Positions 29,986 through 63,796 of a stretch of 64,000 nt of DNA are shown here, one piece after another. Below the pieces are notes generated by a model that saw only the letters and a program-made list of their open reading frames with translations, was not told the origin of the DNA and ran no database searches. Made by a program: the position numbers and the translations under genes. This DNA is from Chaetoderma sp. LZ-2023a (taxonomy: Eukaryota; Mollusca; Caudofoveata; Chaetodermatida; Chaetodermatidae), in NCBI GenBank assembly GCA_034401795.1, contig CM067370.1, forward strand, positions 59,135,333-59,199,332, in the 5' to 3' direction. Position 1 is the first letter of the stretch; the number at the start of each line of letters is the position of its first letter.

Positions 29986-30343
<358 letters not shown>

Positions 30344-35036: not shown

Positions 35037-35184
35037 CGGCCAGTTATAGTAGAGATGAGTAAGTTTATATGTCAGGCGCTGGATGTGGTCTGGCTTCAGA
35101 CCACTGTCATCCCAAATGACATTATAATGGGTTGGTGTCACAGTTCCCTGTCTGACACTCTGAGACACCAGGAAGAAATCATAC
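35037..35184 (-). CDS. piwil1-like: Piwi-like protein, exon E6 (catalytic His)
   Basis: The acceptor is ATCTGCCTAG and the donor CCG|GTAAGT. The exon starts by completing a Trp codon (TG|G) and ends in phase 0. It encodes [20 protein letters not shown], then [20 protein letters not shown], then LTHLYYNWP. The His of PTHYN is the last member of the D-E-D-H tetrad of Piwi/Argonaute slicers. The [16 protein letters not shown] stretch and [15 protein letters not shown] are closer to PIWIL1 than to PIWIL2 in my recollection. The exon sits between a 13.3-kb intron (to E5) and a 4.9-kb intron (to E7). It shows no frame damage. Confidence 0.95.
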
Positions 35185-41474: not shown

Positions 41475-44400
41475 CTAGTAGGTGGGTCAATATACCATTC
41501 GAACCCAAAAAAATTCTAACAAAAGTTCTGTCAACGGTTTTTGGCCCTACTGGATGTGGGGAATGACAAAAAAGTCTACCAAAATCTGACCCCCCCCGGA
41601 AGTGGGTTAAAACTAGGTCAGTTCCAAGATGGCCGCCATCAGCCCTTAAAATCACAAAAATAGTTATAACTTCCTTAATTTTTGTGATAGAACAGTGATT
41701 CTTGTTTCTCCCCCATGGTTTTCAGGGGTAAGCAATTCACTGGTGTCAATAAACTTCCAACCCGACCAATAAAAACTAACAAAAACCACAAATCCAAGAT
41801 GGTGGCCAGCAATAAAGGGTGAAATGGCAATACTAATAATAAATAGATTATTGACGTAGACCATGGGCACAGCATTACAGATGTATCAGTAGAATGCACT
41901 TCAGATGTATCTAATTAATTGACCAGCTATAGTTTCTTTATGGACATTATAATTAGCTGATATTAATAACTGAACACAGGTCTGAAAGGCTAAACTCGCA
42001 ATCTCAATATTTCTCCTCATAACCGTCCTCTAATTCCTCAGAAACCTGGTTGGCCCGATTGGCACAAGACGTAAGTTGGCATGATCCACATGCAGAAGTG
42101 CATGGAAGCCCGCTTCTTCTACAACTGCAACGAGGGGTACTGTAACAAGTTGTGCAATTGCAATGTACCATTTACAGTAGAGTGTCTGGTGTAGCATTCA
42201 AATTAGACATTTTTGGTACAAGTTGATAGTCTGCAAGTCTCCAACCCCAGTCCAAAGGATTAATGCCCCTCTCCATCCCCATCCAAGTCATGGTCTGATA
42301 GTACACCCTGAGACAATGGTATTTGGTGGAAGATTCAGTTGGGGGGGGGGGGACATTCCGGTGTAATGAATGATTTAGCGCAGGCGACTTTCTTAGTAAA
42401 TATGTCATAACGCAAGGCTGCCAGAGAGCAGGTGCTCTTCCCACCAGAAATAACACCATAAACATGAGACGTTGAATTACATCCAATGAATGCATGCAAG
42501 AATAACATTTGTGTACACAACTCACTGCCAAGAAGATGCTTTATCCAATTGATGTTGTACACTTTTGGAATACCTCTTGACTGATTGTCCAATCTAAAAT
42601 AGAGTGGCTTCTGATCTGCTGGAGTGTAATGGAGAAGAAAAATCAACAGGTCAGTGTCCTCTCCAATTAGAGTGGTGGAATGCATAGATGCTGTGGCAAC
42701 TGTAGCCTTAGCAATATCCACATCAACGCCCCCATCTGCCTGAATGACAGTACAACCCACTCTCTTCAGTTCGTCACTTATTAAACTGATTAGTTGCTGC
42801 TTATTAGTTTCTTCCCTTAAAACTCGATTTCACTGGTGAAGTTCACAATTGGATAAATAATGGTTTGTCCCCGTCTCTGGTGTGTGTTATCCTTGATCGA
42901 AGGACCTGCCCCATAACCGTCAAACACAACAGTTGCTGCCCCCTAGTGCCTACTTGGCTATTTTACCGTAGGTATCTCCTCTTACCCACTTTAGCTTGTG
43001 CAGTAAGGAGCCTCCATCAAGCACATATCTTTCAGTCTACGGGATGGTGTTTGATGTTGCTTCACTTGATGGCATCTTGTTACAGTGGTCAGTGATGGCG
43101 TGGACAAATTGAGGTTTGTCAGCCTTTCTCAAGATGTTATTGTCCTCAAAAAGGGATGGCGGATATGAACTCAGCTCGTATCTCATCCCCTACTCAAGAG
43201 ACAGATCTCTTGTCCTAGAAACCACAAGGAATCGTTGGAACAGTAGGTTAGGATCAATAATTCTGTCTGGAGCAACCTTCACAGCAGATGAAGTTCCCAG
43301 GGTCTTAGCTTTATCTTTCCTCTTAAAAGAGAATGAAAATACTGGCTGTCCAATCATTCTGTCAATAATGTTTCATCCAATGGATTCATATTCATGTACA
43401 TTGATGCCTTCTTTTGCCACTATACCACTAATGATGTTTCTCAATGCAAGGTCATAGGAGAAAGGTGAACATGAAGTTAGCTTTGTGCTTATCTTTAAAG
43501 GGTCTGATGGATCCCTTTGAATCCTTGCATCAGTCGAATCTTTGTGTTGTTCGCTTGTGGTGTATGCGAGATGATTGAACTCCTGCATGGCAATGTTGAA
43601 CTTAGACATTATAGGGGCTGAGATTGTCCACAAGGTTCGCTGTTCTTCCGTCATCTTACTGCCATGGTCAAGCCGCCTGTGCTTTTTACTGACCTCACAA
43701 GTGTTTGCTCAATGACTAGATCGCAACTGAAGCCTGATTTGTTCAGTGAATAATATAGAAGCCATCTTGAAACTTCCTGTAGACTTCAAGTAGTTATAAT
43801 ATCCTCTTGCAGCAAATATCGGCAAGGCATCAGCAACAGAACGCAAGTGATTCACCCAAGACTCAGTGCGATCTGCCTTGATCAGTGCTCGTGCAGTACC
43901 TAGCACCCGCTGATAATACATTCTCTCTCTCTCCTCTACTAGGGAAGCGAATTCAGGATTTTCACCAGCTACAGATTTTACAGTCATTTCATGAAGACCC
44001 TTGTCCACCCGCAGATGTCCATCAAATGCCCTTTCAACGGATTTACCAGTCACCATATATATATATATATGCACTACAGCATTTTCATTGTATACTACTT
44101 CCAGAATGTTTTTATGTCATGTTCCCTCCATCAGTGTACCTAATGCTCCAAGCAGATTCATGAGCAAGTGGAAATTACCAAACCATAGTACTATTTCTTT
44201 CAAGTGACTTCTGTGGCGCAGCTCTGATGAGCTCAGCAGCTTTTAAGTACAGGGACTGGTCAAACGTTATCACTTGGGAGGGAGGGGGGGGGGGGGGGGG
44301 GGGGGAGAGGGAAATGGTGTCTGAAGGCCATGTTGCTGAGGAACTCTAATGTGGACAAAATGCAAGTTTTGTCACCAGGATACATGTCGATCATGGGCAA

Positions 44401-45761
44401 ATACAGAATGGAAGATTGGCCGGGATGCGTATGTCCCTGATGAAGGATATGCATCATGCCCTGCCAATTCGGAACTGGTTGTTTGAAATGGAATGATAGC
44501 TCCCATAAGATATCAATCTTGGTGACATGGAAGTTCTTTAAACATGGTGTTTCGAAGAGCATGGGTGGCGAAGCGGTACTCTATAATATCAACTATGGAA
44601 ATCTTTACAATGTTCAGTTCTAAAATTGTTTGTATACTGACAAGAAGGCTTCTTTTCCTACCAGGGCTCAACGCGGCAATCATGCCCATCCCGTGAAATG
44701 TACTTTTACCGTCAATGCTAAGAATATTGTGATCAACATTGTCACCAGAAAATAACAATGACAAGTCCAATAGATCTGTGTCTTCAACTAGCAAATCTGG
44801 TGTGACACAGCTTGCAGCATTCTTTTCAAACCGGAGTACTTTACCATACGATGACCTATACCCCATCTCAAAAAGAGTGTCCACAAGGAATCTGGACTGA
44901 TACAGATGATGTACTTGCACTGCTAGTCCAATCTGTAATGGTGCAATAACAGCCCACGGTCTGGCTTGTCCAATACCGGCTACTTTGTGTTTGTTTGTTT
45001 TTTCAACAAATAGGTAGTTTAACATGTTTCGCAGTGTCTCTGGAAGGAAGCCCAAAGCAGAGACAAGTTTAAGTTCCTCAACATTTAGGTAGTGGTCAGT
45101 AACAGATGGTACCCTTTGTTTTAATGTCACTCCTGGCCAGCTTTGCTGGTGTCTTAATTATGGCTTTCTTTTGTACCTTTTCATCACCGTCTCTGCTCGT
45201 CTTTGTAGTAAGACCGGAGTAGATGTGTGTGTGATGGCGGCATCTCGGCGCATGCGTGCCCAAGAAAAGTACTTCCCTCGCCATTTCTACACAGGATTAC
45301 GGGTAATGTGACAACCAATCCATGAGAAACCCAAACCCTAGTTTGCAGTGTTTATTTTTTCACCTTTGGCTTCCTATAGGATTTGTATGAAACACATGGT
45401 ACACGATCCTGATTGTTGGCTGCCATATTGACCGCCACCTTGGATTTACAGATTCGACAGGGCTAAATCGATATTCCATGTGTGCCAATGAATTCCGTGA
45501 CCCTTAAAACCCTAGAGTAGACATATAAATTACTGTTTTACACCTAATAATAAGGAAGTTATAGCCATTTTCTTTATTTTCAAGATCAGTGGCGGCCATC
45601 TTGGATGGGACCCAGTTTTACCCCATTTCCAAGGGTCATATTTTGGTACTTTTTTCCTGCCATTCACTACATTGAATAAGTTAAAAAACCCACTGACAAA
45701 CGTTTTGTTAGAATTTTTGGGGGGTTAGGGTCTTTTTTTCATAAGTTGACCCGCCTATAGG
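41475..45761. mobile_element. 4.3-kb element with about 400-bp inverted repeats and a PIN/FEN-like ORF
   Basis: The left arm runs from CTAGTAGGTGGGTCAA (41,475). The right arm ends TTGACCCGCCTATAGG (45,746-45,761). Read inward they stay alignable for about 400 bp, sharing AAAAATTCTAACAAAA, CAAAAT.TGACCC, TCCAAGATGGCCGCCA and TATAACTTCCTTA. Between them lies one degenerate minus-strand coding region (42,172-45,284) with no recognised DDE transposase, RT or recombinase. The structure is that of a DNA transposon. I could not define a clear target duplication. Confidence 0.7.
42172..45284 (-). pseudogene. Uncharacterised element-borne protein with PIN/FEN-like nuclease motif, broken
   Basis: A chain of minus-strand frames follows one family order. 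It starts near 45,284, then IGQARPWAVIAPLQIGLAVQ and DNVDHNILSIDGKSTFHGMG (45,130-44,513), then VPNWQGMMHILHQGHTHPGQ (44,562-44,290), VITFDQSLYLKAAEL, and MVTGKSVERAFDGHLRVDKG then RTESWVNHLRSVADALPIF (44,074-43,709). It continues with HKDSTDARIQRDPSDP (43,654-43,373), PVFSFSFKRKDKAKTL, YVLDGGSLLHKLKWVRGDTY, and LIGEDTDLLIFLLHY then FLHAFIGCNSTSHVYGV (42,760-42,335). The acidic EDTDLL and GC(D/N)TTS motifs resemble PIN/FEN-type nuclease cores. Similar proteins are widespread in invertebrates but I know no assigned function. Several stops, frameshifts and a 24-base G tract (44,283-44,306) show decay. Confidence 0.6.
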
Positions 45762-45801
45762 CAAATATTGTCAATAATCATATACAATTATATAAATATT
45801 T

Positions 45802-45887
45802 TGCCGAATATTTTGAAACTAATTTAATTGGAGATGCAATGTCGCTGCTAGTGCTATAGGTAGTTATCAGTCATAAAATATTTAACA
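45802..45887. repeat. F2 foldback element (diverged)
   Basis: GCCGAATATTTTGAAACTAA at the left; CATAAAATATTTAACACA at the right. The inner arms are worn. Confidence 0.55.
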
Positions 45888-45915
45888 CATGTCTTAAAAT
45901 TGAGATTTTAAGCTT

Positions 45916-46104
45916 TTAACACCCAGACCAGCCACAAACAGCCTCTGAAGTGGTCTTGAGAAATGTCCATTTGCAGAGCAAGAGAAGACTTGCAATCAAA
46001 GCAGTCATTCCAGTGATAACATTTCCGAAAATAGTCTTCTCTTGCTTGTCAACTGGACATTTTCTATGAGAATTGAAACTTTCTTTTACAAATTGAAGGG
46101 TTAA
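45916..46104. mobile_element. F1 foldback MITE
   Basis: Opens TTAACACCCAGACC and closes TTGAAGGGTTAA. GCAAGAGAAGACT and AGTCTTCTCTTGC are inner arms. Confidence 0.78.
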
Positions 46105-46167
46105 TGGATTAATAATTAAATGCATGTTTATGTATAAATATACTTTTTATAATATTAAAAGCTGTGC

Positions 46168-46240
46168 TTACTGACTAATAATGTATACTGACTAATAATG
46201 TATACTGACTCATAATGTATACTGACTAATAATGTATGCT
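46168..46240. repeat. 17-bp tandem repeat, about four copies
   Basis: TACTGACTAATAATGTA repeats with one C-for-A change. Simple local expansion. Confidence 0.9.
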
Positions 46241-46377
46241 GCTTTATCATTTATTCCTCACGTGGCAAGTATTCAACTACTAATTCGTTTGAATGTTCTT
46301 GAAAAAGCCTTCAGTACAGACATGACAGAGTTTATTACAAAGGCATATGTTTGATTATGAATATGGCTGCAGATCTA

Positions 46378-47029
46378 TTATTTTCTAAGTTCAGAGAGTT
46401 TGCTTTCCATCTTCTCCTCGGTTTGCTTTAGCTGTAACTGTTTGTCTTTAGCACCACACCGGAGGGCATTAGCTTTACTTAGGAAAGAAAGCTGGGAAGT
46501 TACTTCTGCTTTATCAGAATACTCATCAGCTGATTTAATAAGGGCAGCGATGTCACTTGATAATCGCTGCTTTTTCCTTTTAATTTCTTCAATGGCTTTA
46601 ACAGCATGTCTTTTTTTTACTCTCTTCCTTTTTTTTCTCCTGCCTTTGTTTAATAAGATACTGTTCATATTTTTGCCTGGCCATGGCAGCTGACATGGTT
46701 AACTCTTTATCAATGTTGATATTTAGAATACCACCAACAGCCACAACTTTGTCACAAACAAGTCTCTGAGAAATAGTTGATACTTCATGAAGATTTTCTA
46801 CCTCTACTTCTTTATTGACCAAAAATCCACGTTCTACCTGCGCCTGTCCATGTGAGAGAACAAGCAGTAACTGGATTACATCATAGAGTTTACAAAATCT
46901 GTCATCACTACCCATAGACATATAAGTTAACAAGAACTTATCAACTCTGTCATTGCTGATGCTGAAATGTTTGAACTTATCTATACCAAATACTGGTATT
47001 TCATCAAAAAATCTATTATAGTCATTAAC
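46378..47029 (-). pseudogene. hAT-like transposase C-terminus, truncated by an R1 insertion
   Basis: The minus-strand frame from 47,029 reads VNDYNRFFDEIPVFGIDKFK and then LLLVLSHGQAQVERGFLVNK. The L-S-H-G-Q-A-x-V-E-R-G-F motif is the C-terminal dimerisation part of a hAT-type transposase. It continues with QRLVCDKVVAVGG and a Lys/Glu-rich coiled-coil tail. An A-rich run near 46,610-46,660 shifts the frame, after which the tail goes on (AIEEIKRKKQRLSSDIAALI) to a stop at 46,378. Upstream it is cut at 47,029 by the start of an R1 element, so the catalytic core is missing. A captured host exon is less likely. Confidence 0.68.
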
Positions 47030-48290
47030 AAGAGGCCCAAGGGGCCTGTGTCGCTCACCTGGATCACCATCAATTTTTGTCAAAATTGTTGGTGGGTCGT
47101 TTAGCAGTCTTAAATGAGTTTGTGGACATTTTTGCAAGTGCAATATGGCCGCCAAACACACTACATTTTGATTGCCCCACGGCACCCATGTTTTTTTGAT
47201 GGATCAACTTCCCTTCAACAAATTTTAATGGCCCAAATTTCGGCCTGATCCCTTCAGCGGTTCTGGAGGAGTCATTTTCGTGAAACCCAGGTCATCCAAG
47301 ATGGTCGCCGAAGCATTTGGTCAATCAAGTCCTCATGAACAAACTTGGCTTACCTCTTGGCCTAGATGAAGATTACCCAAGTGGTTTCGGAGATTTTTAA
47401 AGACATTTCCTGAAATTGGTTGAAATCCAAAATTGACCGATTGGATTCATTTGAACAAAATTGGATCCTTATGCCCTAAGGATGCTTCCTGCCAAATATA
47501 ATTGAAATCAGCTTGGCAGTTCTCGAGAAGACATTTTAAACTTCCCATTGCTTTAGCATGGGAGCTTTTGGCGAGAAAATTATCCAAGATGGCCGCCAAA
47601 CCGTTTATCCGACAGTTTCGAAAATTGCAAATTTGAGCTCAGAATACCCAAAAAGATATATGGAACTAATTTTGGCCTCAAAATCCATCAAATAGAAAAA
47701 TCCAATATGTCCGCCAAACAAGCTACATATTGATTGGCCCACAGTCATGTTTTTTGACGGAGCAACTTCCCTTGAACAAACTTTAATGGCCCTTAGTCCC
47801 TAATTATATCTCCCAAATTTAGGCCTGATCCATTTAGTGGTTCTGGAGAAGTCGTTTTCGGGAAAGATAGGTCATCCACGAGAGCTGCCGAACCATTCGG
47901 TCAATCAAGACGTCTTGAACAAACTTGGCTTACCTCTTTGCCTAGATGAGATATCACAAGTTTTGAATCGATTCCCCAAGCCGTTTCGGAGAATGAAATT
48001 TTTTAGACATTTCTAAAAAGCGGCCCAAATCCAAGATGGCCACCGGCCAAAATAGCCGATCAGCTTCATTTGAGCAAAATGAAATCTCTATGCCATAAGG
48101 ATGCTTCCTGCCAAATATAATTCAAATTGGCCCAGCAGTTCACGAGAAGACATTTTAAATTTCCCATTGCTTTAGTATGGGAGTTTCTGGCGGGAAAATG
48201 ATCCAAGATGGCTGCCAAACAGTTTATCAGACAGTTTTGAAAATTGCAAATTTGAGATCAGAATACCCAAAAAAACTATATTTAAAATTA
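47030..48290 (+). repeat. R1 dispersed element in Piwi intron
   Basis: Starts ACAAGAGGCCCAAGGGGCCT then GTGTCGCTCACCTGG. Contains repeated CCAAGATGGCCGCCAAACCG, TTGAACAAACTTTAATGGCC and CTAAGGATGCTTCCTGCCAA. The 3' end is not typical, so this copy may be truncated at the right. No coding. Confidence 0.72.
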
Positions 48291-48444: not shown

Positions 48445-48570
48445 CATTCAGGTTTTGTGATTTCCGAGTCCACTATTGTACCAGGACATGGGTTGCTCAA
48501 TCTTGAATCAGCGGCAGTGAAGATACGGGCATTGATGCGCTTCTTTACCACAACAACAGCCATCTTTGGC
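48445..48570 (-). CDS. piwil1-like: Piwi-like protein, exon E5
   Basis: The acceptor is CTATCTTTTCACAG and the donor TG|GTATGT. The exon starts by completing a Lys codon (AA|G) and ends in phase 2, leaving TG for Trp. It encodes PKMAVVVVKKRINARIFTAA, then DSRLSNPCPGTIVDSEITKP, then E. The VVVKKR and NPxPGTxVDxEIT blocks are typical of the PIWI domain between the second catalytic Asp and the catalytic His. The intron to E4 is 1,098 bp and the intron to E6 is 13.3 kb. The latter contains the Tc1, PIN/FEN-like and hAT elements. No frame damage is visible. Confidence 0.95.
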
Positions 48571-49668: not shown

Positions 49669-49822
49669 TTGTAATCCTGTCCAATAGCCTGAAAGCAAGT
49701 ATGTATCTGCTTTATCTCATGCTCCACAACAACTGGCAGTTGACCATCTCCGACACCATCACGGTACACCACTACTCTCTCTGGCGGCTTTCCATTTACC
49801 TGATGAAATTGGCGAAGAGCCG
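49669..49822 (-). CDS. piwil1-like: Piwi-like protein, exon E4 (second catalytic Asp)
   Basis: The acceptor is ATTTTTTGTTTAG and the donor AA|GTAAGT. The exon begins with CG, which completes an Ala codon with the G left by either copy of exon E3. It encodes ALRQFHQVNGKPPERVVVYR, then DGVGDGQLPVVVEHEIKQIH, then TCFQAIGQDY. The Asp of VYRDGVGDGQ is the second catalytic Asp of the tetrad. Joined to E3b, the text reads ...SIQ-AALRQF, as in PIWIL1 (LQAALRAW). Exon and phase are fully compatible with both E3 copies. Confidence 0.95.
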
Positions 49823-54242: not shown

Positions 54243-54417
54243 CTGTGATTGATGTATAAAGTCCACTGAGCAGCTCTTCATGGGTTTGTTGAAAAGACAC
54301 CTTTGAATAGTATTTTGTTAGGCTCTTATTCATAGAGCAGACCACTCCACCAACGGAGAGTCCCTTCTTTGATGAATCGTGGTATGTATCGATACCTATG
54401 ACCATTATCCCGCTTAC
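54243..54417 (-). CDS. piwil1-like: Piwi-like protein, alternative exon E3a (first catalytic Asp and Glu)
   Basis: The acceptor is GCACTTGCAG, immediately followed by GTAAGC, and the donor is ACAG|GTATTT. Length 175 nt, phase 0 in and phase 1 out. It encodes VSGIMVIGIDTYHDSSKKGL, then SVGGVVCSMNKSLTKYYSKV, then SFQQTHEELLSGLYTSIT. Asp at exon residue 10 (GID) and Glu at residue 48 (EEL) match the first Asp and the glutamate finger of Piwi slicers, 38 residues apart as in mouse MIWI. Compared with E3b, 40 of 58 residues are identical, and differences cluster in the second half. It has no stop or frameshift. A decayed duplicate is unlikely because spacing, phase and catalytic residues are all kept. 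Confidence 0.9.
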
Positions 54418-55661
54418 CTGCAAGTGCAGCGCCATTGTTTAACAAAAAGAGCATCGTAACAAAAATAAACGCATGCAAATAAATGCAAAGAATAAACATA
54501 AATAGAATATTAATCAACAAATGTTAAGAGAAACATGACATGCAAACTAAAAAGTAACTGAAATAATGAATAGGCATCTGTAAAGAAACATTAAAATTAT
54601 TAGCAGCAAAAAGCACATAACAAACAAGCAGCCAAGGTTAGATACGAAGAAAAAAATTAGTAAAACTGATGGATGCTCCCCGAAATGTGTACTTAAAACA
54701 ACTGTATTGTAAACTGCCCTTCATTTCATACAAGTATAGGTTTATGACAAGAGCTCCGTAAAGACGAGCTTCAGCAGACAAAAAATTTCCGTGATGTTCA
54801 GTCAACTGTGAAAACTAAATCAGTGACCTCCTTTTCATAAGCAACCTGGAGCATATAATGCATCTGCATCGACAACCCAAGCTTGGTGACTATTATGAAA
54901 ATGTCTCAGACTATGGCCCAGACAAACATGTAGGGTAGGAATTGACACAAAATGTGGCGACTATTTTTCGGGGAGCATAAAAACCACAATCAAACAATGG
55001 ACCTACCTGTATACACTCGTAATATACCTGCTGCATTAACCCTGTGACACTCAAGCCGACCCAAAATGGCTTCTGCAGTGGTCCTGAGAAATGCCCTGAG
55101 ATTAGTTTTGAAAATTTATTACTGCAATGAATGGCTCAATAATCGAGCCAGTCATTCCAGTGATAAATTTTCAAAACCAATCTTCTCTTGGTGTGCAAAT
55201 GGGTTAATACCACAGATGCACCATTCTGATTAAGATCCAAGAACTAGCTACAGCTACTAATAGACTTGATAATTAATTAATGACACCAAGAATGCAATTC
55301 CTTTCTTAGAAAGAAATCAACAGGGCGGGATTGATAAAAATCTAATCAAATTTTGACAATACGCTTTGACATTAAAATAAGATTTTGTATTTTTTTTTTT
55401 ACAAAATCAGCATGCTTAATTTTGTGTAATCGATATTTTGCATAGCATACAACAAGAGGCTCAAGGGGCCGGTGTCGCTTATCTGGCGCACAGGCATTTC
55501 AACTAGAATGGTCAAGATGACTTACACTTACTAGGCGACGTCGCATTTTCCAGCATGCAAGGGAGTGACCTCTGACTATGACTACTGACACACATTACAC
55601 TATAAATCTTAATTATACATGCAAACAAGACTATATTAATATGCCAAGCATATTGGCACAC
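54418..55661. other. 1,244-bp intron between the two E3 copies
   Basis: Contains an F1 hairpin (55,036-55,206) and the first 100 bp of an R1-type repeat (55,450-55,545). AAACAATGG lies 19-27 bp upstream of E3a on the minus strand and opens an in-frame ATG (M-A-L-H-L-Q) running into E3a. The rest shows no feature. Confidence 0.6.
55036..55206. mobile_element. F1 foldback MITE between the alternative Piwi exons
   Basis: Bounded by TTAACCCTGTGACACTC and GTGCAAATGGGTTAA. The central GGCTCAATAATCGAGCC with flanking AATTTATTACTGCAATGAAT and CATTCCAGTGATAAATTTTC makes a long hairpin. Confidence 0.82.
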
Positions 55662-55836
55662 CTTGAATCGAGATTTTGAGCCCGTCCATAAGCTCCTGCA
55701 TGTTTGACTGGAACAAACAACGACTGTAATATTTGGTGAGTGACCCGTTCATACTAGCAACTACACCTCCAACACTGAGGCCTTTCTTGCTGGAATCGTG
55801 GTAAGCATCAATACCCAGCACCATGATACCTCTAAG
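55662..55836 (-). CDS. piwil1-like: Piwi-like protein, alternative exon E3b (first catalytic Asp and Glu)
   Basis: The acceptor is TGTTGTTAATATAG (a weak pyrimidine tract) and the donor CAAG|GTGTGC (weak). Length 175 nt, phase 0 in and phase 1 out, identical to E3a. It encodes LRGIMVLGIDAYHDSSKKGL, then SVGGVVASMNGSLTKYYSRC, then LFQSNMQELMDGLKISIQ. Asp 10 and Glu 48 are present. The second half (RCLFQ, QELMDGLK) is closer to canonical PIWIL1 (RCIFQ, QELVDGLK) than E3a is, so E3b looks like the ancestral form. It follows E2 across a 3.5-kb intron. It must be used instead of, not together with, E3a to keep the frame. Confidence 0.92.
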
Positions 55837-57530
55837 CTATATTAACAACATAGTTATGAGAAAAGACATTAATGCAGGTGACAAAATCCACAGCAAGCAA
55901 AATCACAATGTGCAAAAGTGAACGGTTAATAACATATAAGCAGAAATGTGGTTGCAATGCAATCATGAAGCTCGACTTTACAATGATCTATAAAGTTGGA
56001 CTTCAAACATAAAATAAATATAGAAGGCATATCAATATGATAAGCACTTATCAACAAGAGGCACAAGGGCCTGCGTCGCTCACTTGGGCCATTAGCATTT
56101 GACCCATTTGCATTTAACTAGGCATGATGGATAATTTCCGGAACATCGAAGATGACCACCTAAGAAATTGACCAATTGAAATTCTCATTTGATTTCCTGA
56201 AGCTTAGAGTCATAGGATCATTCCACCCAAGTTTGGTTAAAACCTAGTCATTGACTAAGTAGTAGTAGCGATTTAAACTCTGCTGGTAAATGCAAGATTA
56301 CTGCCAGAAAAATTGACCAATCAAGATTTTCATTGTAAGTCTTGAAGTTCATCATGATAGGAGCATGAGCATTCCACCCAAGTTTGATTGAAATCAGGCC
56401 ACTGATTAAGGAGTAGCATCTTAAAGGATTTCTGGAAAATCTTTACCAATCAAAATTCTGTATATAAGTTCTGAAGTCTAGTCCAATATGGTCTTTTCAG
56501 TCAATTTTTCATAAAGATTTCCCTCAGAAAGTTGATCAATCAAAATTATGAACAGAAGCTCTGGAGTTTACCATGATAACTTACCTCCATTAAAATTTCG
56601 TCAAAATATGTCAAGCAACTAAGGAGAAGTAGCGTTTTGAAAATTTCTGTTAAATTTTTCATAAAATCCAAGATTTTCAGCCAAATCATTGGTCAATCAA
56701 AATTCTGAATAGAGGTTCTAGAGTGTAGCACCATAGAATACGTCTAGCTAAATTTTGTTCAATTATGTCAAGCAACTAATGAGTAGAATTTTGAGTTTCT
56801 GGTAAAAAAAATTTTTTTTTAAATCTATGATTTTAACCAAAAATATTTACCAATAACAATTCTGAATAGAAATTCTGGAGGGTACCAACATAGGGTTCTT
56901 CCAACACAATTTGATTGAAATCGGCCAAAGCATTGATGGACACAAGACGGACGGATGGAATGGCATAAGCTCACTTGACCCTTTGGGGTCACTCATTATA
57001 AGGAAGCATATGGCCAAGTTTGGGTCCAGTATGATTAACCAAAGATTACATATAAACTGCTAAGTTGCACTAAACGGAAAATAATGATGGAAAAAAAACC
57101 CCGATGTTTTTACCAAGGTCACAGTGACCTTGACCCTTTGACCCCCAACGTCATTGTGTCATGCCGTGTTATTATAATGAAGCATGTGTCCAAGTTTGGG
57201 TTCAGTATGATTAACCAGATGAGACATACTGTTAAGTTAAACGGAAAATGATAATATTAAAAACAAGAATTCTGCGGAATTAAATGGCTCGCCTGTCTCC
57301 TGTTTGTCACAGTGGAATTAACCGTTGACCTTATGACCCCAACAGCATCATGCTGCTCCCTATCATTATAGCTAACCATGTATCCGAGTTTACTTGCAAT
57401 AGGCGTAACCAATCCTGAAATATAAGGGGAGATTTTGCTAAATGCAGACCATTAACGTTGACGCTGCCGCCGCCCTGCAATAGCGCATTTTACTTCGTAA
57501 AGTCGAGCTAAAAACAATATGTATGTAGAT
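55837..57530. repeat. Piwi intron: R1/R3 and R2-type repeats
   Basis: An R1 head (ACAAGAGGCACAAGGGCCTG) at about 56,054 leads into R3 units to about 56,950. R2-type text (GTCCAAGTTTGGGTTCAGTA) follows at 57,000-57,250, then a GAATTCTGCGGAATTAAATG copy at 57,268-57,500. No exon. Confidence 0.65.
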
Positions 57531-57569
57531 GCTAGGACATGCTATAATTGTTTTAAGCATGCCGCAGCT

Positions 57570-58115
57570 AGCACGCCCAGTGAAGATGCACATTAATGTA
57601 CTCAATCAATCAATCCATACAACAATATTATAGTAGCATGCATGAGAGCAACTTCAAGCATAGCAATGCTAGTACAGACTAAAGCATGACCATAAACTGA
57701 TACTGTTACGGATAAATTATAATTAAACTATGTATAAATAAAATGAGAGCAACTTCAAGCATAGCAATGCTAGTATAGACTAAAGCATGACCATAAACTG
57801 ATACTGTTACGGATAAATTATAATTAAACAATATGTATAAATAGCACGCCCAGTGAAGATGCACATTAATGTACTCAATCAATCAATCCATACAACAATA
57901 TTATAGTAGCATGCATGAGAGCAACTTCAAGCATAGCAATGCTAGTACAGACTAAAGCATGACCATAAACTGATACTGTTACGGATAAATTATAATTAAA
58001 CTATGTATAAATAAAATGAGAGCAACTTCAAGCATAGCAATGCTAGTATAGACTAAAGCATGACCATAAACTGATACTGTTACGGATAAATTATAATTAA
58101 ACAATATGTATAAAT
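57570..58115. repeat. Two-level (nested) tandem duplication, 273 bp outer and 102 bp inner
   Basis: AGCACGCCCAGTGAAGATGC starts at 57,570 and 57,843. Within each outer copy, GAGAGCAACTTCAAGCATAG occurs twice (57,643 and 57,745; 57,917 and 58,018). The first inner copy always has GTACAG and AACTATG. The second always has GTATAG and AACAATATG. So the inner duplication came first and the pair was then duplicated. Copies are nearly identical, hence recent. Confidence 0.9.
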
Positions 58116-60939
<2,824 letters not shown>

Positions 60940-62499: not shown

Positions 62500-63543
62500 G
62501 GGCGGCCTGGGCCGTTACAGTCTGGAATAAGCAGGGCGGCCTGGGCCGTTACAGTCTGGAATAAGCAGGGCGGCCTGGGCCGTTACAGTCTGGAATAAGC
62601 AGGGCGGCCTGGGCCGTTACAGTCTGGAATAAGCAGGGCGGCCTGGGCCGTTACAGTCTGGAATAAGCAGGGCGGCCTGGGCCGTTACAGTCTGGAATAA
62701 GCAGGGCGGCCTGGGCTGTTACAGTCTGGAATAAGCAGGGCGGCCTGGGCCGTTACAGTCTGGAATAAGCAGGGTGGCCTGGGCTGTTACAGTCTGGAGT
62801 GAGCAGGGTAGCCTGGGCTTTTACAGTCTGGAATGAGCAGGATGGCCTGGGCTGTTACAGACTGGAGTGAGCAGGGTGGCCTGGGCTGTTACAGTCTGGA
62901 ATGAGCAGGGTAGCCTGGGCTGTTAGTCCTGTTAGTCTGGAGTGAGCAGGGTGGCCTGGGCTGTTACGGTCTGGAGTGAGCAGGGTGGCCTGGGCTGTTA
63001 CGGTCTGGAGTGAGCAGGGTGGCCTGGGCTGTTACGGTCTGGAGTGAGCAGGGTGGCCTGGGCTGTTACAGTCTGGAGTGAGCAGGGTGGCCTGGGCTGT
63101 TACAGTCTGGAGTGAGCAGGGTGGCCTGGGGCGTTACAGTCTGGAGTGAGCAGGGTGGCCTGGGCTGTTACAGTCTGGAGTGAGCAGAGTGGCCTGGGAC
63201 GTTACAGTCTGGAGTGAGCAGGGTGGCCTGGGACGTTACAGTCTGGAGTGAGCAGGGTGGCCTGGGACGTTACAGTCTGGAGTGAGCAGGGTGGCCTGGG
63301 ACGTTAGTCTGGAGTGAGCAGGGTGGCCTGGGACGTTACAGTCTGGAGTGAGCAGGGTTGCCTGGGCTGTTAGAGTCTGGAGTGAGCAGGGTGGCCTGGG
63401 ACGTTACAGTCTGGAGTGAGCAGGGTGGCCTGGGCTGTTAGAGTCTGGCATGAGCAGGGTGGCCTGGGACGTTACAGTCTGGAGTGAGCAGGGTTGTCTG
63501 GGCTGTTAGTCTGGAGTGAGCAGGGTGGCCTGGGACGTTACAG
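62500..63543. repeat. 34-bp minisatellite, about 30 copies, in Piwi intron
   Basis: The unit is GGGCGGCCTGGGCCGTTACA then GTCTGGAATAAGCA. The proximal block (62,500-62,770) is nearly uniform with GGCGG, GGCCG and AATAAGC. The distal block (62,770-63,543) has GGTGG, GGCTG or GGACG and AGTGAGC. Units with missing ACAG (30 bp) occur near 62,930, 63,305 and 63,508. It stops 102 bp from the donor of Piwi exon E1. The G-rich strand and high CG content contrast with the AT-rich surroundings. Confidence 0.96.
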
Positions 63544-63644: not shown

Positions 63645-63796
63645 CAGGCCTTTCACAGCATGTTAATTTCTTGATCGCATCATAGCGATCTTTCCGATTA
63701 TTTGGCAATAGACACAGTACCAACTGCGTTGTAGGCATCACCGTTTCACGGAGGGCATTCAGATATGATTCATTTCGATCATTGCTCAACCTAACC
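63645..63796 (-). CDS. piwil1-like: Piwi-like protein, exon E1 of this window (MID domain)
   Basis: The acceptor is GCTGCTCTCTTATTTCTAG and the donor CCTG|GTACGT. It starts with one base completing a codon and ends in phase 1. It encodes VRLSNDRNESYLNALRETVM, then PTTQLVLCLLPNNRKDRYDA, then IKKLTCCERP. The QLVLCLLPNNRKDRYDAIKK stretch is diagnostic of the Piwi MID domain, and its Tyr and Lys line the guide 5'-phosphate pocket. Upstream exons (N domain, PAZ) must lie beyond the right edge of the window; none is recognisable in 63,797-64,000. Confidence 0.95.

Follow-up and report, generated by a model that had tools for sequence, protein, structure and literature searches.

Can one Piwi gene give rise to two Piwi proteins that differ around the slicer centre by choosing between two copies of a catalytic exon? 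An initial annotation had proposed this for a Piwi gene in a 64,000-nucleotide stretch of the Chaetoderma sp. LZ-2023a genome (the window; positions 59135333–59199332 of contig C12 in a 2.44-Gb assembly). We located the exons of the gene by tblastn and with a Piwi profile, and then read their borders directly. The gene that carries the exon pair is of the Piwil1 type, lies on the minus strand and is wider than had been noted, extending past the window at its high-coordinate side: in coordinates continued beyond the window, both searches placed PAZ exons near 117.8 and 109.3 kb (117786–117980 and 109296–109403) and a MID exon at 72131–72313, all on the minus strand. About 120 residues between the 109- and 72-kb exons were found neither by tblastn nor with the Piwi profile; a 500-N assembly gap (80037–80536) sits where they fall and probably hides them. 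Within the window, also on the minus strand, are the MID/PIWI exon E1 (63645–63796; VRLSNDRNESYL...CCERP; tblastn, with AG/GT borders) and, each placed by its borders and tblastn, the PIWI exon E2 (59302–59420), which ends in phase 0 (...VEIP), E4 (49669–49822) with the second catalytic Asp (VVVYRDGVGDGQ), the PIWI exon E5 (48445–48570), E6 (35037–35184) with the catalytic His (PTHYNV) and the last coding exon E7 (29986–30102; ...LFFL, then stop). The upstream and downstream alternative catalytic exons, E3b (55662–55836) and E3a (54243–54417), rest on borders, tblastn and the tree described below and are separated by an intron of 1244 nt (54418–55661). An exact 273-bp tandem repeat lies inside the E2–E3b intron.

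The exon pair is as the initial annotation had described it. E3b and E3a are adjacent, measure 175 nt each and run from phase 0 to phase 1, with AG|exon|GT confirmed to the base. Their translations are identical at 40 of 58 residues, and the first halves are the most alike (24/29 identical residues, compared with 16/29 among the last). The two offer alternative forms of the segment that carries the first catalytic Asp (residue 10) and the glutamate finger (E, residue 48). Inclusion of E3b and E3a together brings a stop 30 codons into the second copy (GKRDNGHRYRYIPRFIKEGTLRWWSGLLYE, then stop), and skipping of both brings one 8 codons into E4 (RLFANFIR, then stop); either copy alone stays open through E4–E6 and on to the stop in E7, and gives the full PIWI domain that had been claimed for one-of-two use. 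This use is imposed by the reading frame itself. Each mRNA would take either E3b or E3a between E2 and E4, and mRNAs with both copies or with no copy would presumably be removed by nonsense-mediated decay.

The protein-level evidence agrees for both combinations. Against the Pfam Piwi domain (PF02171; cut-off 28.9), the E1–E7 model scored 338 bits with E3b and 343 bits with E3a, and with either copy the joined model spans positions 1–301 of the 302 in the domain. Across the open frames of 124 kb (the window plus 60 kb of flank), the Piwi profile gave no match to this segment at E <1 beyond E3a and E3b. D10 and E48 occur in each E3 copy, D in E4 and H in E6, so that the D-E-D-H tetrad, as we assign its residues in this gene, is kept with either exon.

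The initial annotation had suggested seeking a second E3 copy in related genomes. We compared the exon with protein models in databases (217 Piwi proteins among the matches listed, the two large searches contributing the best 120 of 1844 and the best 120 of 714); when the query was limited to the 58-residue E3a region, the yield was only 18 candidates and 7 proteins. Both types are present in oyster and mussel models. In Saccostrea echinata, the NCBI isoforms X1 and X2 are both 871 aa long and differ at only 18 positions, all of them from residue 640 to 689 and so inside the exon, which spans 632–689; their contigs have the same length, so both presumably derive from a single contig. The isoform pair already stands in public annotation, apparently unremarked. 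The Mytilus galloprovincialis model P0018 joins the two copies head to tail, b before a, with the first copy clipped at its end, as a predictor must do to preserve the frame. Single b-type models occur in Ostrea edulis (isoform X2), Mya and Dreissena, and a-type models in Crassostrea virginica (isoform X1), Saccostrea cucullata and a pair of database entries placed with the oysters. Since the database is clustered at 90% identity, the second isoform of a species is usually hidden. A further a-type entry, P0128, is an uninterrupted 873-aa frame on a contig of 3,293 bases, in a cluster of 32 members, and is therefore probably derived from an mRNA. Four scallop rows show a single intermediate type, Mactra a divergent b-side type and Potamilus a divergent type. 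Judged from these models, above all S. echinata X1/X2 and Mytilus, the exon pair is conserved in relatives and is not private to Chaetoderma sp. LZ-2023a.

This bears on the possibility that an assembly error put the exon of a second Piwil1 locus inside the gene. The gene does contain the 500-N gap, and the exact tandem repeat lies in the intron next to E3b; the gap, however, is more than 24 kb away from E3, and the oyster and mussel models have the same arrangement. A Piwi domain search of the Chaetoderma genome gave at least 18 matches in at least four loci (E3b not among them), and with the profile searches these comprise this gene, one Piwil2-type gene (on contig C14) and two Argonautes (on C17), names that we assign by sequence resemblance. 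Among the matches listed, this gene is the only Piwil1-type locus. The Piwil2-type gene has a single E3 exon; the exon duplication is thus seen in this gene only. We consider an assembly error extremely improbable.

The two copies have been separated for a long time. At the nucleotide level, E3a and E3b are identical at 98 of 174 positions (76 differences), and their agreement at third positions (17/58) and at fourfold sites (3/17) is at about chance level. In this one pairwise comparison pS is 0.91, which is saturated, and dN is 0.39; dN/dS is far below 1, although we give no exact value because dS is saturated. Five conserved serines switch between the TCN and AGY codon families from one copy to the other. 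When the 76 differences were placed at random 20,000 times, 88% of the placements gained a stop and the maximum identity was 26/58, and all ten E3 columns that are invariant in a 30-protein alignment (A2) are retained in both copies of the window. E3a and E3b are both old and under long purifying selection. The initial annotation had called for a selection test on each copy; the E3a/E3b comparison combines saturated synonymous sites with a conserved protein.

The acceptors set the pair apart from the rest of the gene. Upstream of its acceptor AG, E3b has an AG-free zone of 132 nt (55837–55970 with the AG) and E3a one of 127 nt (54418–54546, likewise with the AG), both on the minus strand. Six other acceptors of this gene have 23–54 AG-free nucleotides and seven of the Piwil2-type gene 21–60, so that only E3a and E3b exceed 100 nt among 15 acceptors in two Piwi genes. 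For the Piwil2-type gene, the acceptor was taken as the AG nearest the start of homology (any listed AG gives ≤68 nt), and an eighth match, the start of which is not at an acceptor, was left out. Of the 6464 gaps between successive AGs on the coding strand of the 124 kb, only 6 are 127 nt or longer, and two of these six are the E3 acceptors; an AG-free zone as long as 127 nt would be expected in about 0.1% of cases. The chance probability of the split (2/2 E3 acceptors compared with 0/13 others) is 0.0095, for a pattern that was noticed after the fact. At the donors of both E3 copies, 7 of 9 positions fit the consensus, and 7 or 8 do so at the five other donors scored.

E3a might nevertheless be a decaying relic that is out of use, given that its acceptor carries a sequence resembling a 5′ splice site (CAG|GTAAGC) and that its donor departs from the consensus at +4 and +5. 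Its frame, its splice sites and all ten invariant residues are nonetheless intact, the synonymous saturation and the unexpected length of its AG-free zone speak against decay, the PIWI domain scores no lower with E3a than with E3b, and the a type is used in the oyster models. We regard a relic as very improbable. Both alternatives that the initial annotation had set against its own proposal, decay of one copy and a collapsed assembly, therefore fit poorly with two intact, constrained copies and a pair that is present in the models of relatives; the exon pair is real and, judging from these comparisons, probably functional.

How the choice between the copies might be made is suggested by the acceptors. 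According to the available text of PMC1431707, AG exclusion zones of ≥100 nt mark distant branch points in human genes and go with more alternative splicing, the regulatory elements lying between branch point and exon. Sites resembling yUnAy lie 89–106 nt from the AG in both E3 zones, and nearer ones occur too; in neither zone were PTB-type motifs in excess over shuffles. The long AG-free zones at both E3 acceptors would make these a shared type of regulated acceptor, and exon choice is probably set there by way of distant branch points, in the manner of tropomyosin-type exons. Steric exclusion does not apply because 1244 nt lie between the copies, nor does incompatibility of U12 and U2 sites, since the introns of the eight exons examined are GT–AG with U2-like donors. 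Docking and selector RNA pairing was also considered; the best complementarity between the E3b–E3a and E3a–E4 introns involves a palindromic repeat, and we do not count it as evidence. This palindromic, repeated element lies at 55099–55183 and has copies downstream.

The pyrimidine tracts of E3a and E3b are weak (9/17 each, compared with 11–14 at five other acceptors), and both wrong combinations stop early, features that would suit a poison-exon switch in which double inclusion or skipping is a regulated output that lowers Piwil1 and does not serve to make two functional proteins. A poison exon, however, has no need of catalytic residues and a PIWI fold, and both have been kept over saturated synonymous divergence; oyster models, moreover, have a alone and b alone. 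Such a switch appears quite improbable to us. That one gene yields two Piwi proteins, as the initial annotation had proposed, is supported by the frame, the purifying selection, the oyster X1/X2 isoforms and the Mytilus model, and on this sequence evidence the gene probably makes two versions of the Piwi enzyme.

To place the duplication in time, we built a tree of the E3 segment (43 copies, 58 residues, LG+G4; unrooted and with few columns) from 39 proteins chosen out of the 217, the two window copies and the Mytilus copies, leaving out P0102 and the Potamilus entry P0168, both missed by the motif search. A branch with support of 95/92 unites window E3a, Mytilus copy 2, five oyster-type a copies and gastropod rows (seven, from Haliotis, Gigantopelta, two Patella, Lottia, Batillaria and Littorina; two further rows group with Littorina, which makes nine gastropod or gastropod-like rows in total). 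On the b side are window E3b, Mytilus copy 1, two oyster b copies, Mya, Dreissena and Mactra among the molluscs, together with annelid, nemertean, echinoderm, cnidarian, hemichordate, amphioxus and vertebrate rows. The same branch parts seven a copies from six b copies, and the four scallops are placed beside the a side. With the b copies falling among non-mollusc phyla, b, and hence the sequence type of E3b, looks ancestral and a, the type of E3a, looks like a molluscan novelty, a polarity that the tree favours without proving; because the segment tree is unrooted, the direction from b to a is one that we infer. The most likely timing, likewise favoured and not proven, is that the duplication predates the split of bivalves and gastropods. 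An exon choice of that age may exceed half a billion years.

The main competitor of this timing is that the exon was duplicated independently in the lineage of the window, in mussels and in oysters, with a-like sequences converging and the same splicing mechanism at work. In approximately unbiased (AU) tests on the 58 columns, which have low power, four clades are not rejected: the window pair (p 0.256), the oyster copies (p 0.147), all bivalve copies (p 0.145) and the bivalve a copies alone (p 0.313); the two window copies share residues such as L20 and K35 against Mytilus and oyster, and convergent duplication of tandem exons is documented in other gene families (PMC9741552, in its available text). 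A clade of the Mytilus pair, by contrast, is rejected (p 0.026; one of five clades tried), and holding the window, Mytilus and oyster sets together all at once costs 38 log units (p-AU 0.044; KH and SH 0.062). The same exon is duplicated in Mytilus in the same order, b then a. Furthermore, when the copies of window, Mytilus and oyster are divided into an a set and a b set, the two sets have no residue in common at 8 of 54 columns, compared with 1, 0 and 0 when the labels are exchanged in Mytilus, in oyster or in both, and T11 and C27 are common to all three a copies. We therefore hold independent duplication to be unlikely and a single duplication before the bivalve–gastropod split to be the better reading.

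The resemblance between the window copies still calls for comment. They agree with each other against the other species at 4 positions (Mytilus) and 5 positions (oyster), the residues concerned being 3, 4, 16, 20, 26 and 35, and sites at which a strictly matches a and b strictly matches b are fewer (1 between window and Mytilus, 2 between window and oyster); between Mytilus and oyster, within-species agreement occurs at 1 site against 3 strict matches. This agreement within the window may reflect partial gene conversion, co-evolution with the rest of the protein or lineage drift; recent gene conversion is disfavoured because the conserved serines differ in codon type. Outside E3, the window gene falls within the mollusc set (95/93, in the tree without Piwil2 rows). 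A placement with gastropods, given by a quick tree (98), was set aside: the mixture-model tree places the gene only inside molluscs, and we claim no class.

Taken together, it seems to us highly probable from the comparative sequence evidence that one Piwil1-type gene carries tandem, mutually exclusive exons for its slicer centre and would encode two proteins that each have the D-E-D-H tetrad, with a duplication most likely older than bivalves and gastropods and a choice controlled at the acceptors.

What the two proteins would do differently is suggested by structure. The structure predicted for oyster X1 gives the exon (residues 632–689) strands 635–644, 652–659 and 667–674 and the start of a helix (677–699). 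We take residue 641 to be the catalytic Asp and residue 679 the glutamate finger, and both are invariant in alignments A2 and A3. The oyster X1 and X2 models have the same secondary structure in the PIWI domain (pLDDT 81.7 and 81.4), and the solved structures nearest the X1 model are MIWI (top), MILI, EfPiwi and Siwi. At nine residues of the exon, a is distinct from b across window, mussel and oyster (11, 27, 31, 40, 45, 46, 50, 54 and 58; residue 58 is unfilled in Mytilus copy 1). Six of the nine, from 40 on, lie either ahead of the glutamate finger, in a strand and loop, or in the helix that bears the finger and continues past it. With differences around the glutamate finger and the next helix, the two Piwis probably differ in behaviour; on the models, the a/b difference would tune catalysis or a partner surface, and catalysis would not be lost. 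The probable differences are in cleavage rate or in the preferred target or partner, and they may play out between tissues or stages. The fuller proposal, a spliced switch of the Piwil1 slicer centre that predates bivalves and gastropods and yields two enzymes differing in cleavage or partners, we put forward tentatively, as a possible rather than a probable reading of the sequences.

On the common view, the piRNA pathway of animals diversifies by duplication of Piwi genes. In this gene, the catalytic heart of Piwi appears to be diversified within one gene, by exon choice, which, if true, would provide a second ping-pong partner, or a division between germline and soma, without a second gene. 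Duplications of mollusc Piwil1 have been reported, and piRNA data from molluscs have been read as showing both homotypic and heterotypic loops, ascribed to PIWI paralogs (PMC6128900, in its available text); if the two isoforms exist, those loops could involve isoforms as well. Studies that treat mollusc Piwil1 as one protein may have mixed two. The pair would also offer slicer enzymology natural paired variants near the glutamate finger (18 residues in S. echinata), testable in oysters.

The initial annotation knew of no described Piwi with such an exon pair, and we likewise found no Piwi or Argonaute gene with one among the papers listed from an open library of 5.39 million, from which subscription journals are mostly absent; the accessible text of three mollusc small-RNA papers (PMC6128900, PMC12479628 and PMC4793324) does not mention it under the terms isoform, splicing or exon. 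Orthologs of the same gene type (MIWI and the Piwil1 of S. echinata, Mytilus, Mya and Dreissena) have one version of the segment per MIWI chain or database entry, with the exception of the two in Mytilus P0018. A small change in the PIWI domain can alter the affinity and turnover of an Argonaute, as a swap of loop 602–608 in HsAGO2 shows in the available text of PMC10240194, although that swap was engineered between species, concerns another loop and is not natural splicing. The alternative oxidase of oyster (PMC5589949, available text) likewise has a duplicated, alternatively spliced exon in an oyster enzyme gene, but the enzyme is unrelated and the setting is stress. Exons with distant branch points (PMC1431707, in part) share the AG exclusion zone of ≥100 nt found at both E3 acceptors; they differ in that a branch point near the donor of the upstream exon is sterically ineffective here, given the 1244-nt intron, and the branch points here are candidates. 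Tandem exons of the mutually exclusive kind are known already and are often of ancient origin (PMC9741552), with examples in tropomyosin and alpha-actinin (PMC1431707) and in OGDH (PMC7969005), as far as the available parts of these papers go. In the pattern outlined there (PMC9741552), which the Piwil1-type gene would share, adjacent homologous exons enter one per mRNA, key residues are kept, the changes are mostly conservative and most events are ancient; neither Piwi nor Argonaute occurs in the accessible main text. Unlike tandem exons in general, the exon that would be swapped here holds two of the four catalytic residues of a small-RNA-guided nuclease.

In the Piwil1-type gene on the minus strand, exon E2 (window 59302–59420) lacks two residues that all eight relatives aligned with it in A1 possess, reading LGKN--LMS where these mostly have LSKKQMLMS. 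E3a, one of the two alternative copies of the catalytic exon, starts with VS, encoded at the acceptor, in place of the LK of most other sequences compared; VS at the start of E3 is also found in the scallop Argopecten. The E3a acceptor itself (CAG/GTAAGC, window 54412–54420) has the appearance of a good 5′ splice site as well.

The introns of the gene carry several repeats. An 85-nt palindromic repeat (87% self-complementary; window 55099–55183) lies between E3b and E3a and has relatives, both direct and inverted, within the E3a–E4 intron; these elements could pair across E3a. The E2–E3b intron contains a 273-bp tandem duplication with 100% identity (window 57569–58116), itself harbouring a 101-bp repeat, and this identity would fit either a very recent event or a duplication introduced by assembly. 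Immediately downstream of E1 is a minisatellite of about 30 copies of a 34-bp unit (window 62500–63543). Five minus-strand open frames of 106–214 amino acids occupy the E5–E6 intron (window 42338–47203); a Pfam search of these frames gave no match, and our guess is that the stretch is probably a mobile element. Beyond the window, in continued C12 coordinates (L010), a further Piwi intron holds an uninterrupted 342-amino-acid frame (75839–76864) that, by eye, we take to resemble a Tc1/mariner transposase. A scaffold gap of 500 N within the gene (80037–80536; L010) falls in the same interval as its missing conserved middle exons.

Elsewhere in this genome, two Argonaute genes are located on C17 (L021–L028) in opposite orientation, approximately 400 kb apart. 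The Mytilus galloprovincialis model P0018, labelled 'aubergine', additionally includes an unrelated N-terminal half (Pfam PF04821) and is therefore a fused gene prediction; its Piwi part alone entered the analysis. In Saccostrea echinata (P0172 and P0126/P0127), another contig bears a second Piwil1 model, which is nearly identical and contains the a-type exon.
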